This document shows, piece by piece, positions 7,554-11,184 of a stretch of DNA of 64,000 nucleotides. The notes below the pieces were generated by a model, which was given only the letters and a program-made list of their open reading frames with translations, was not told the DNA's origin and did not search any database. Both the position numbers and the translations under genes were made by a program. Location of the stretch: contig NZ_JACSMA010000001.1 of the NCBI RefSeq assembly GCF_018618415.1, positions 434,001-498,000 on the forward strand. Direction: 5' to 3'. Each line of letters starts with the position of its first letter. Position 1 is the first letter of the stretch. The DNA is from Exiguobacterium sp. s146 (GTDB taxonomy: Bacteria; Bacillota; Bacilli; Exiguobacteriales; Exiguobacteriaceae).

Positions 7554-7718
7554 ATGGGACAGTCGAATTTCTTATGGATGGGTGTCGTCATCGCCATCAG
7601 TGCGCTGATCGTCTGGTTGTTACAGGACGTGATGCCGTTTTGGATGTTATCTATCATCCTGCTCCTATTCGGGGCGGCAGTCGGAAACTTGCAGCGACGC
7701 ACGCGAAAAGACACGTAA
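7554..7718 (+). CDS. Small two-helix membrane protein
   Basis: A 54-residue protein. The ATG at 7554 follows GAGGTGA by five bases. Residues about 8-25 and 30-47 form two hydrophobic helices with a short loop containing Asp and Pro, and the tail is basic (QRRTRK), so the C-terminus should be cytoplasmic. It lies 19 bases after the preceding small gene, suggesting co-transcription. Small orphan membrane proteins like this are common in Bacillales; no function can be assigned. Confidence 0.7.
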   Translation: MGQSNFLWMGVVIAISALIVWLLQDVMPFWMLSIILLLFGAAVGNLQRRTRKDT

Positions 7719-7750
7719 AAAGCACGTCATCATTCAGATGGCGTGCTTTC
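7718..7750. terminator. Bidirectional terminator
   Basis: AAAGCACGTCATC pairs with GATGGCGTGCTTT with one G-T pair. It ends the small membrane gene and overlaps the last codons of the convergent gene at 7730. Confidence 0.8.
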
Positions 7751-8962
7751 TTCGTCTTCAGCCGGCTCGTCCGTGGCTTCTTCGGTCGCGTCATCGGCGA
7801 CCGGTTTCTCTTTGGCGGCGGGTGGTGTCTCTTTCTTATCAGGCTTGGCGGTGGCTTTCGGCTTGTCTTGTTTCTTGACCGGTGCCGTCGCCTCCGCTTC
7901 TTTTTCCTGAGCTGCCGGTTGTTCTGGCTCGACCGGTTCCGCCGGTTCGGTCACGGGAACGTCGGGCTCGGTCGGTTGCTCCGTGACGGGAGGTGCCTCA
8001 GGTTCTTCGGCCGGTTGTTCCGGTTCGGCCGGCGGCTCTTCCTCGATCGGTGCCGGTTCTTCCACTGGCGGCTCGGTCGGTTCCGGTGTTTCGGGTGCTG
8101 CCTCGGCTTCCGGAGCTGGTGCCGGTTCTGGCGCTGGTTCCGGTTCAGGGGCCGGAGCGGGTTCAACCGGGTCTTCACGTTTTGGGACCGGTGTGATCGG
8201 TGCGACTGGTGCGAGTTCAGCGGCCGGGGTATCGTGTTTTGTCGTCGGTGGCGGGGCCGGTGTGTCCGACTCGAGGAACGACAGCACGTCTTGTTCGAAC
8301 AAGGCGACCGGAAGTGTCTTCGTCACCAAGTGAAGTCCGAGCACCCGTCCATTGGCCGTGACGATCGGGCTGCCGATGGCGCGGTTCGGTAAATCAAATT
8401 CGCGACGATAGCTATCTTCTTCGAACGTGAGCGTTCCTTCAAACTGTTCGTCCGGTGCGAGGGTCAACACCGATTCGTCCAGTCCGACAATCGCATGGCT
8501 GAACGAGAACGGGGTCGCTTTCACTTTTTCGATGCGGATGACGGCGATGGCGTCGGTCCGACCGATGACGGTTCCGTTCACTGCCTTGTCACCGTGTTTC
8601 ATCGTGACACGAGTGATGCCGGCGACGTTATGGGCCGCCGTCAACACGTCTTGCGGGCTAATCAAAAATCCGGTACCTGTGCCGACGGTATAAAGGCTTT
8701 CTTGCAACGTCTCGAGGTCGACGTTGGTGGCACCATCGGCTGAGACCGTGTCTTCCGTGATGTTCAAATCGACTTTGTCGGCGAGCGAATCACTCGAGCG
8801 CGGGCTGTCGGTCAGATAGGCGTTCGTTAAAAAGGAGACGAATGCGATGAGGGCAATGACGATGGGGGCAGCGATCCATTTCAAGCGACGTGGGCGATGG
8901 CCACACGTCGGACAAACAGTGGTTTTCGAGCGGGTCTTCGCTCCGCAGCGTGGACAAGTCAC
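7730..8962 (-). CDS. Membrane-tethered zinc-ribbon protein with inactive trypsin-like domain
   Basis: A 410-residue protein read from the GTG at 8962, which follows GGAAGG by nine bases. It opens with a four-cysteine zinc ribbon (C3, C6, C17, C20), then one membrane helix (about 30-48). A trypsin/HtrA-like domain (about 88-230) follows, with His111 in TAAHNV and Asp137 in the DAIAV motif. Where the family has GxSGxP this protein reads R-A-I-G-S-P, so the nucleophilic serine is replaced by Ile196. The last 175 residues are almost entirely Pro, Glu, Ala and Thr, a likely wall-spanning spacer. The zinc ribbon would face the cytoplasm and the pseudo-protease the wall. Catalysis is unlikely; a sensing or binding role is inferred. 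It resembles zinc-ribbon/serine-protease proteins of Bacillales in layout. Confidence 0.85.
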   Translation of the reverse strand: MTCPRCGAKTRSKTTVCPTCGHRPRRLKWIAAPIVIALIAFVSFLTNAYLTDSPRSSDSLADKVDLNITEDTVSADGATNVDLETLQESLYTVGTGTGFLISPQDVLTAAHNVAGITRVTMKHGDKAVNGTVIGRTDAIAVIRIEKVKATPFSFSHAIVGLDESVLTLAPDEQFEGTLTFEEDSYRREFDLPNRAIGSPIVTANGRVLGLHLVTKTLPVALFEQDVLSFLESDTPAPPPTTKHDTPAAELAPVAPITPVPKREDPVEPAPAPEPEPAPEPAPAPEAEAAPETPEPTEPPVEEPAPIEEEPPAEPEQPAEEPEAPPVTEQPTEPDVPVTEPAEPVEPEQPAAQEKEAEATAPVKKQDKPKATAKPDKKETPPAAKEKPVADDATEEATDEPAEDEESTPSE

Positions 8963-9132: not shown

Positions 9133-11184
9133 TTAAAGTGATTTGTAGCCAAGGAAGTGTGGCCGCCACTTCGGGTCATGAATCGAGTTGATTTGGAGCA
9201 TCTCGCCGCCCGCATGAATGAACGTCTCTTTATCGAGCATGATGCCGATATGAGACGGACCGGTGCGATACGTCCCATGGAAGAAGATGATATCGCCTCG
9301 TTTTCCACTCGAAATATTCGTCCTGCGGTTTTTGAAATGGTTACTTTGCCAATAGCCGTTCACATTCGTCCGTCCGCCGACTTTCCCGGCTTGGTTGGTC
9401 GCGTAATGGATGAGACCCGAGCAATCGAAGCCACCATTGAGCGGAGATTGTGAACCCCATGTGTACGGCGTTCCGAGATGTTTCGCGGCCGATGCGATCA
9501 TGCGCTCGGCCTGTGTATTGCCGCGCGACGCGAGTAACGGATCCGATTTCACGCGGATGTCCTGCTTCTTCACGTAAACCGGGCTCCAACTCTCTTGAAT
9601 CAAATACGAATCACCATGAAGCGAGCGGGGATAGACACGGCGGTTTGTATCGAGATAGCCGATTGGTTTCGTGTCTAACGGATTCGCATAGAAGGGAGTA
9701 CGTTTGAACGTGTAGTAATACGCTTTGACGTTCACGTTCTTCGCCGCGATTGCTTTCGGTTTCGTCTGAGCGATATACGGGTTCAAGACGTATACTTTTT
9801 TCCCCGAGGCAAGTCGGACCTGCCAAAAGTCGTCATCGATCGAACGAATCCCGACGAGTTTGGCGCCGCGCGCTAGCTGGCCGGCTGGGCGCGTGTAGGC
9901 GATATCACTCGAAAAGTATGGTGTCCCGCTAAGTTGCGTATAAAAGACGGTACCGGCTTTCGGTTTTGGGAGCGGCTTATTCAGACTCAAGTAAGACGAA
10001 GCGACGAAATAATACTTCGTTCCAATCTTGACCCGTGTATAATGTCCACTCGTCCCATACGTCTCAATCAAGCGACCTCGGTTGAATTCAGCCATCTGCT
10101 TCGAGAAGGTAGATGTGGTTTGATACACTTCCACCTCATCAAATTTGACATATCGTTTGCCCGTCGCGTCATAAAGCGGGGGTTTCTTTGTGCTCGTCAG
10201 GCTGGTGGCGACAAAGCGATATTGTCCGCCCGTGTAGACGCGCGTGTACTTTCCATATGTCCCGTACATGTTGACGAGCGACCCGCGCTTGAGCGTCCCG
10301 ACTTGTTTGAACGACTCGCTATATAGAGTGGCGTTTTTCGTGATGTAGCGTTGCCCGGTTTTCAGGGGTGCAGGCTTGGTCGTGCTCGTATGGCTCGTTT
10401 GAACGAACCGATACTGGCCACCCGTGTAAACACGCGAGCGGTTTCCTACTTCCCCGTAAATGCTGATGCGTTGCCCACGCTTGACGGTACCGACAATCTC
10501 GTCTTCAATCGAATCAGCGTAAAGCGATGTATCTTTCGTGATGTATCGTTCAGCTGTCTTGATTGGACGACTGAGTGTTGCGCTCATCGCGATATAATGA
10601 TAGGTGTCACCTGAGCGAATCCGGTAATATTTGTTTTTTGTCTGCCCGAACACGGTGATTGTCTGGCCGGATTGAACGTTACTGACGACCGGCCCGATAC
10701 GGGGTGTAGCGTAAACATTCGCCTTTGCTTTGACATACCGGGTCTCCCCGGCGAGGACAGGAGCAGTATCAGCGAGTGCGGTACGTTTGATGAATTGTGG
10801 CGTCTCTCCGACGACGCGAAGCAGGGCAGCCTCATCGCCTAAATCGTAAACGCTCACGGTTACACCATATGACAAAAACTCGACCGCGTTCCCTGTTTCA
10901 TCAAGCAGGTACGTTTCAGCGATGACAGTTTTCGTCACCGATTCGGCGAGGGCGTCGTTCGAGACATACCCGGTTTGGTCACCTGACGATACGTGGGCAT
11001 GGGTATCCGACCGCTCAAGGACGGTGACGGCCGTGCCTTTCGGTAACGTGGTGAAGCCATCCACTTCTTCAATCGACACGAAAAGAGGTGTGTCTAGCTT
11101 CAAGACGAGCGTTTCTGTCTCGGCGGACGCGGTATGGATGAGTAAAAAACTGAATAGCGCAATCAAGCTGAATAATCGTTTCAT
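9133..11184 (-). CDS. Secreted NlpC/P60 endopeptidase with SH3-like repeats
   Basis: Predicted exported peptidoglycan hydrolase of 683 residues. A signal peptide ends near residue 21 (HTASA). Eight SH3-like modules of about 60 residues follow; the ones starting at RYVK or RYIT are closest to each other ('vGtvkrGq.i.iyG..g.ytrVytGgqYrfVqtS'). The C-terminal NlpC/P60 domain (about 570-683) has the expected catalytic Cys588 (FDCSG), His645 (PSHIGI) and His657 (IHAGG). The family cuts gamma-D-Glu to diamino acid bonds in peptide stems; the repeats should bind the wall. The start follows AGAGGTGG by nine bases. It is a monocistronic gene. The high repeat number and lack of LysM or SLH domains set it apart from B. 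subtilis LytE/CwlS-type enzymes. Confidence 0.93.
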   Translation of the reverse strand: MKRLFSLIALFSFLLIHTASAETETLVLKLDTPLFVSIEEVDGFTTLPKGTAVTVLERSDTHAHVSSGDQTGYVSNDALAESVTKTVIAETYLLDETGNAVEFLSYGVTVSVYDLGDEAALLRVVGETPQFIKRTALADTAPVLAGETRYVKAKANVYATPRIGPVVSNVQSGQTITVFGQTKNKYYRIRSGDTYHYIAMSATLSRPIKTAERYITKDTSLYADSIEDEIVGTVKRGQRISIYGEVGNRSRVYTGGQYRFVQTSHTSTTKPAPLKTGQRYITKNATLYSESFKQVGTLKRGSLVNMYGTYGKYTRVYTGGQYRFVATSLTSTKKPPLYDATGKRYVKFDEVEVYQTTSTFSKQMAEFNRGRLIETYGTSGHYTRVKIGTKYYFVASSYLSLNKPLPKPKAGTVFYTQLSGTPYFSSDIAYTRPAGQLARGAKLVGIRSIDDDFWQVRLASGKKVYVLNPYIAQTKPKAIAAKNVNVKAYYYTFKRTPFYANPLDTKPIGYLDTNRRVYPRSLHGDSYLIQESWSPVYVKKQDIRVKSDPLLASRGNTQAERMIASAAKHLGTPYTWGSQSPLNGGFDCSGLIHYATNQAGKVGGRTNVNGYWQSNHFKNRRTNISSGKRGDIIFFHGTYRTGPSHIGIMLDKETFIHAGGEMLQINSIHDPKWRPHFLGYKSL

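Follow-up and report, generated by a model that had tools for sequence, protein, structure and literature searches.

A zinc-ribbon, membrane-anchored protein of Exiguobacterium carries a fixed trypsin-fold pseudoprotease domain

The window, by which we mean the whole stretch of 64,000 nucleotides of Exiguobacterium sp. s146 analysed here, contains a gene whose product resembles a membrane-bound protease and has isoleucine where the catalytic serine is needed. This raises the question of whether the protein can still cut and, if it cannot, what it is kept for. In the 410-residue product, a Cys4 zinc ribbon is followed by a single transmembrane segment, then by a trypsin-fold domain and finally by a long tail rich in Pro and Glu (Table 1); in the order of its first three parts the protein belongs with the zinc-ribbon-TM-Trypsin_2 group of proteins. 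All 19 orthologs have a GA-rich stretch 5' of the GTG start codon, which by eye is a ribosome-binding site. Zinc-ribbon models of Pfam match the window protein weakly: PF13248 is found in 19/19 members at E up to 0.1, with a score below gathering in the member shown. The ribbon presumably lies in the cytosol. A single hydrophobic segment follows in every ortholog, starting at residue 27–30 and with a best 19-residue Kyte-Doolittle mean of 2.12–2.59.

The fold of the next domain was assigned by sequence profile. Trypsin_2 (PF13365) matches the window protein at E 1e-5 with 26.7 bits, just below the cut-off of 27.6, and is found in 19/19 members at an E of 0.1 or lower, 2.8e-8 being the best. 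The profile match runs across the domain and places it in the Trypsin_2 / S1C fold superfamily. No PDZ domain was matched by Pfam at E up to 1, and no NTF2 domain, PF22819 included, was among the Pfam matches of the protein. The tail of the window protein is 27% Pro and 22% Glu; across the 19 orthologs, tails are 147–215 residues long, with 24–30% Pro, 20–32% Glu and a net charge of -18 to -61. Neither Pfam nor NCBIfam models supplied a family name, and no literature directly on this protein was found among the open-licence papers listed.

Table 1. Positions in the window of the pseudoprotease gene, its parts and the adjoining elements
Feature	Coordinates	Strand	Basis
Whole coding sequence, 410 aa, GTG start	7730–8962	-	GTG start in 19/19; dN/dS far below 1
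N-terminal Cys4 zinc ribbon, residues 1–26	8885–8962	-	PF13248 match; C3, C6, C17 and C20 invariant across orthologs
Single transmembrane segment, about residues 27–49	8816–8884	-	Hydropathy maximum
Degenerate trypsin-fold (pseudoprotease) domain, residues 81–233	8264–8722	-	PF13365; hhalign; MarP structures by sequence profile
His111 codon (catalytic His column)	8630–8632	-	His 7, Ser 11, Tyr 1 of 19
Ile196 codon (catalytic Ser column)	8375–8377	-	Ile 10, Tyr 6, Val 3 of 19
Pro/Glu-rich, net-acidic tail, residues 234–410 (177 residues)	7733–8263	-	Composition in 19 orthologs
Terminator-like hairpin between two convergent genes; holds the TGA stop, one arm encodes C-terminal STPSE	7719–7749		Read in 19 orthologs; covariation over 13 distinct sequences
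Convergent 54-aa hydrophobic microprotein	7554–7718	+	Same 19/38 genomes as the pseudoprotease

The catalytic residues were read column by column in the 19 orthologs. A first-pass annotation of this DNA had given the nucleophile site as R-A-I-G-S-P with Ile in place of Ser, and the sequence is indeed R194-A-I-G-S-P199, in which Ile occupies the nucleophile column. None of the 19 orthologs has Ser there. Since 19 genomes agree on a residue other than Ser, a sequencing error at this codon, which had been named as a way in which the reading could fail, is excluded. At the oxyanion Gly193 column, Gly was never found (Arg 8, Tyr 5, His 5, Asn 1). The earlier statement that His111 is kept is true of the window protein and of 7/19 orthologs and fails for the other 12 (Table 1), and the statement that Asp137 of the triad is kept proved wrong: the catalytic Asp column corresponds to Ala138 in the profile alignment, with a two-residue deletion before Asp. 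This column, which was anchored on the motif I-A-V and for which MAFFT on a larger set placed the gap elsewhere, holds Ala in 10 orthologs, Leu in 6, Ser in 1, Phe in 1 and Asp in 1 (L008 only). A complete triad is present in 0/19 orthologs, and the His-Asp-Ser triad with oxyanion Gly that would identify an active serine protease is lacking.

Two residues of the domain, Ser198 and His211, are invariant in 19/19 orthologs. Ser198 had been put forward as a possible true nucleophile. It falls two positions beyond the column of the former Ser, on a column that is Gly in 43/43 aligned relatives (see below), so that by alignment it is not a displaced nucleophile. The domain was also remodelled. Compared by MAFFT with seven active relatives, it is about 15–16 residues shorter in the stretch that joins the Asp strand to the Ser loop; from the loop after the Ser strand, which lines the substrate site in the trypsin fold, about 8 residues are missing. 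Because of these shortened segments and the larger residues at the oxyanion Gly column in all 19 orthologs, a classical peptide-binding groove in the domain is doubtful. As judged from the sequences, the protein is a fixed pseudoprotease that has lost its catalytic residues.

The gene is present as a single ortholog in each of 19/19 Exiguobacterium genomes, none with an internal stop, and in none of the 19 genomes of the sister genus. Thus, it is restricted to the genus within its family; the order-level search took in the same 38 genomes. No second copy was found in its own genome at E up to 10. Among named records of close loci is E. chiriqhucha RW-2, with 97% identity over the 238-residue N-terminal part. 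The dN/dS ratio (Nei-Gojobori) of the domain was 0.06–0.12 in 12/12 pairs tested; dS was near saturation for some pairs, and the 9/12 pairs with a domain dS of 0.16–0.55 agree. For the tail it was 0.09–0.21, while for the transmembrane and stalk region it was as high as 0.50 in one pair. The low ratio in the domain indicates a constrained protein rather than a decaying gene: the protein is kept by purifying selection, and selection acts on something other than classical catalysis.

Outside the genus, 19 genomes among the 398 of the class that were searched have matches at E up to 0.01, and several of these share the order of zinc ribbon, hydrophobic segment, spacer and Trypsin_2. Relatives were then sought with a profile of seven intact members. 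Family f3 gave 74 matches in 58/101 genomes (E up to 1e-40) and family f29 gave 13 matches in 13/24 genomes (E up to 1e-30); the best 30 of the 74 f3 matches and the 13 f29 proteins made up a first set of 43. All 43 carry an N-terminal CxxC...CxxC pair, followed within 50 residues by a hydrophobic segment in 42/43 (in the exception, L117, the segment is further on, as read by eye in the overlapping L137). When aligned, they retain the catalytic His (43/43), the Ser (43/43), a D-[IV]-A motif at the catalytic Asp (43/43) and the oxyanion Gly (42/43). The other 44 f3 matches comprise 5 with a zinc ribbon and 39 with none. All 44 keep His and Ser, and 43 keep Asp, four of them with a variant motif by eye; in the 39 lacking a ribbon the triad is intact, as judged from the motif or by eye, and the 5 with one have His 5/5, Ser 5/5 and Asp 4/5. 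Together, the 48 zinc-ribbon relatives of the two families all keep His and Ser, and 47 of them keep Asp, in a set found with an intact-member profile, which strongly degenerate relatives could escape. The first-pass annotation had proposed an alignment with active homologs of relatives to see whether the Ser loss is fixed; here, 19/19 orthologs are non-Ser and all 48 relatives are Ser, and the description of a zinc-ribbon, membrane-anchored pseudoprotease is also borne out.

These Trypsin_2 proteases of other Bacilli resemble the window protein in having a zinc ribbon, a hydrophobic segment and a trypsin-fold domain in that order. They differ from it in their triad, which is complete in 47 of these 48, in the spacer ahead of the domain, which is acidic or variable, and in their C-terminal parts: a TcaA NTF2-like domain in 3/3 f3 members scanned, and acidic tails in 13/13 f29 members by eye, with motifs (L123–L135) that we take to be EF-hand-like. 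In three f3 proteins (L027:814-2256, L033:1225-2625 and L035:2107-3573), a zinc ribbon, a transmembrane segment, an active Trypsin_2 protease and a TcaA NTF2-like domain are predicted in one protein, which is by its sequence a protease-bearing layout related to TcaA. Two other relatives depart from the intact pattern: L134 retains His and Ser, with Val in place of the oxyanion Gly, and the zinc-ribbon protein of L138 (a 440-aa frame) has Asn at the catalytic Asp. These members are perhaps losing activity.

Next, the profile of the 19 orthologs was compared with that of the seven relatives by hhalign. The match had a probability of 99.5% and an E of 1.7e-22 over residues 1–211, that is, zinc ribbon, transmembrane segment and domain together. 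A 45-row tree united the pseudoproteases with a support of 100/100; their branch measured 4.5 changes per column and was placed among the f29 zinc-ribbon proteases at 97/95. A tree of 35 rows gave the same f29 grouping at 90/92; grouping with HtrA-type rows was not rejected (p-AU 0.117), and the placement rests on a very long branch of 4.3–4.5 changes per column. Descent from zinc-ribbon, membrane-anchored proteases of trypsin/HtrA fold is the better reading, and a likely rather than a proven one.

How does the protein compare with known systems? MarP (Rv3671c) is its best NCBIfam match (NF033740, in 19/19 members), and the MarP structures (PDB 3k6y, 3k6z and 3lt3) are its best PDB sequence match (sequence profile E 5.5e-9). 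The window copy scores 35.9 bits against a NF033740 cut-off of 250, and it differs from MarP, which has a membrane part of several passes and retains Ser in the aligned chains of 3k6y and 3k6z. It shares the trypsin fold with HtrA/DegP and differs in having neither a PDZ match nor a triad. TcaA is not known to have a protease fold, and the window protein reaches 8.7 of 550 bits for the TcaA model NF053815. Another parallel is MamO of Magnetospirillum, likewise a trypsin-fold pseudoprotease with a residue other than Gly at position 193 and with the nucleophile Ser replaced, in its case by Thr; MamO differs in its C-terminal TauE transporter domain, its di-histidine metal site and its alphaproteobacterial host, and the available portion of that paper makes no mention of a zinc ribbon (PMC4794232). 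Trypsin-fold pseudoproteases are already known; one that is anchored by a zinc ribbon, has a Pro/Glu tail and is fixed throughout a Gram-positive genus seems to be a new form.

At its 3' end the gene runs into the hairpin of Table 1. The C-terminus reads STPS[E/D/A] in 18/19 orthologs and STSSE in L007; we did not keep a functional C-terminal peptide as the simplest reading, since a hairpin arm encodes these residues and a constraint on the nucleic acid accounts for their conservation. Over 13 distinct sequences, 93.7% of the hairpin cells are paired, compared with 31–59% when the pairing is slid, and 4/11 pairs have changes on both sides; one of the 11 is unpaired in 8/13 sequences. In 500 shuffles, the percentage paired, the number of covarying cells and the covariation score were equalled in 0/500, whereas 83/500 attained the count of pairs with two-sided changes and 108/500 the pair-type count. 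The terminator scan by itself was not above chance (6 sites versus 3.6 +/- 2.0). Since the convergent gene has its end next to the stem, the hairpin may stop the transcripts of both genes.

The convergent gene encodes the conserved 54-residue microprotein, which is probably two-helix, occurs in 19/19 Exiguobacterium genomes and 0/19 of the sister genus, and reads 64 residues from an upstream ATG in 11/19. That it is a partner of the pseudoprotease is possible but unproven. A genus-wide envelope module, in which the pseudoprotease would act as a receptor or adaptor paired with this membrane microprotein at a fixed locus with a shared hairpin terminator, seems to us improbable. On the tail side, a TPR-like gene is found in 19/19 Exiguobacterium genomes, with a homolog in 15/19 sister genomes at 29–32% identity. 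A search for a syntenic counterpart at six TPR-homolog loci of the sister genus recovered no other gene of at least 100 aa from the 16-kb neighbourhood at E up to 1e-4. A DUF3221 ORF is in 10/19 ORF lists, which follow a longest-ORF rule, so that absence from them means little.

The upstream side varies among genomes, so the pseudoprotease gene probably has a transcript of its own; no protease stands beside it throughout. In the window, positions 9133-11184 (minus strand) encode a wall hydrolase with four SH3 stretches and an NlpC/P60 domain, a gene that varies among relatives. It was considered as a partner because MarP is said to act on an NlpC/P60 enzyme, and was set aside, its cluster being in the fetched stretch in 6/19 genomes and directly upstream in 2. 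In L064 and L069, about 1.5–2.8 kb downstream, a further secreted protease is encoded, in which GNSGGP is intact and the N-terminal region is, by eye, Ig-like; similar proteins are encoded in L079–L081. As a partner it was set aside, being near the gene in 2/19 genomes only. An anti-phage role was rejected, as PADLOC showed no more than weak similarity to LmuA (E 0.001).

What, then, could the protein do? We favor a non-catalytic, membrane-anchored adaptor or regulator of the envelope, working in the manner of MamO, to which we give a probability of roughly 0.6. MamO acts by activating MamE and by binding metal, and its residue other than Gly at position 193 was argued to likely prevent an oxyanion hole (PMC4794232). 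The loss of this Gly in all 19 orthologs, together with that precedent, is what favors a binding role. An ancestral zinc-ribbon, membrane-anchored protease of trypsin/HtrA fold would have lost its catalytic residues. To judge by the layout, the zinc ribbon would sit in the cytosol and the trypsin-fold domain just beyond the membrane, with the tail extended into the wall. The remodelled domain would bind a protein or wall partner and position or regulate it. This partner is possibly an active protease or hydrolase, as MamE is for MamO, and the first candidates are two PDZ-containing proteins of HtrA type that the same genome encodes at other loci.

Two alternatives start from the layout. The first-pass annotation had proposed a transmembrane sensor, in which a dead groove would bind peptides outside and the zinc ribbon would report inside. 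The layout that it described stands, as a zinc ribbon, one transmembrane segment and a Pro/Glu tail, and the four invariant zinc cysteines agree with such a role. The role itself is not supported: the segments near the substrate site are shortened, position 193 has lost its Gly, no regulator was recognised among the listed neighbors, and nothing specific speaks in its favor, so we hold it unlikely. Alternatively, the protein may act on wall polymers like TcaA of Staphylococcus aureus, with the protease fold as its outer domain. TcaA is predicted to have an intracellular zinc finger, a single transmembrane segment and a large outer part, which affects wall teichoic acids (PMC10328498), an inside/outside order that the layout suggests here as well. 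The zinc-ribbon relatives of f3 end in PF22819 in 3/3 scanned (L027, L033 and L035), while the f29 protein L024 does not. With no NTF2 match in the window protein, and with NF053815 weak in 12/19 members (best E 0.33, and covering the zinc ribbon only in the member shown), this explanation is rather unlikely too.

The remaining alternatives turn on single residues. Metal binding as a second function, with the zinc ribbon and His211 as ligands, has the invariance of His211 and the example of MamO (PMC4794232) behind it. His211 is, however, the sole invariant His, and L134, a relative with intact His and Ser, also has His at this position, which leaves metal binding very unlikely. That Ser198 and His211 form a relocated active site is suggested by their invariance while the classical triad drifts; the Gly column on which Ser198 falls argues against it, no third member was identified, and we give it a small chance. 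Finally, the change from Ser to Ile and the drift of the catalytic His between species could be the marks of a decaying pseudogene or a sequencing artefact. This is already refuted to within a negligible chance by stop-free reading frames in all 19 genomes, the low dN/dS ratio of the domain, and the conserved start and hairpin.

In conclusion, Exiguobacterium maintains a pseudoprotease that evolution has preserved carefully, and which therefore probably works by binding and not by cutting. Few bacterial trypsin-fold pseudoproteases have known roles, MamO being the one among the papers listed. The present protein is fixed in a Gram-positive genus, and relatives of the same layout with an intact triad exist in other Bacilli. 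With such relatives at hand, and with the protein fixed in a culturable genus, the loss of catalysis and the gain of a binding role could be followed.
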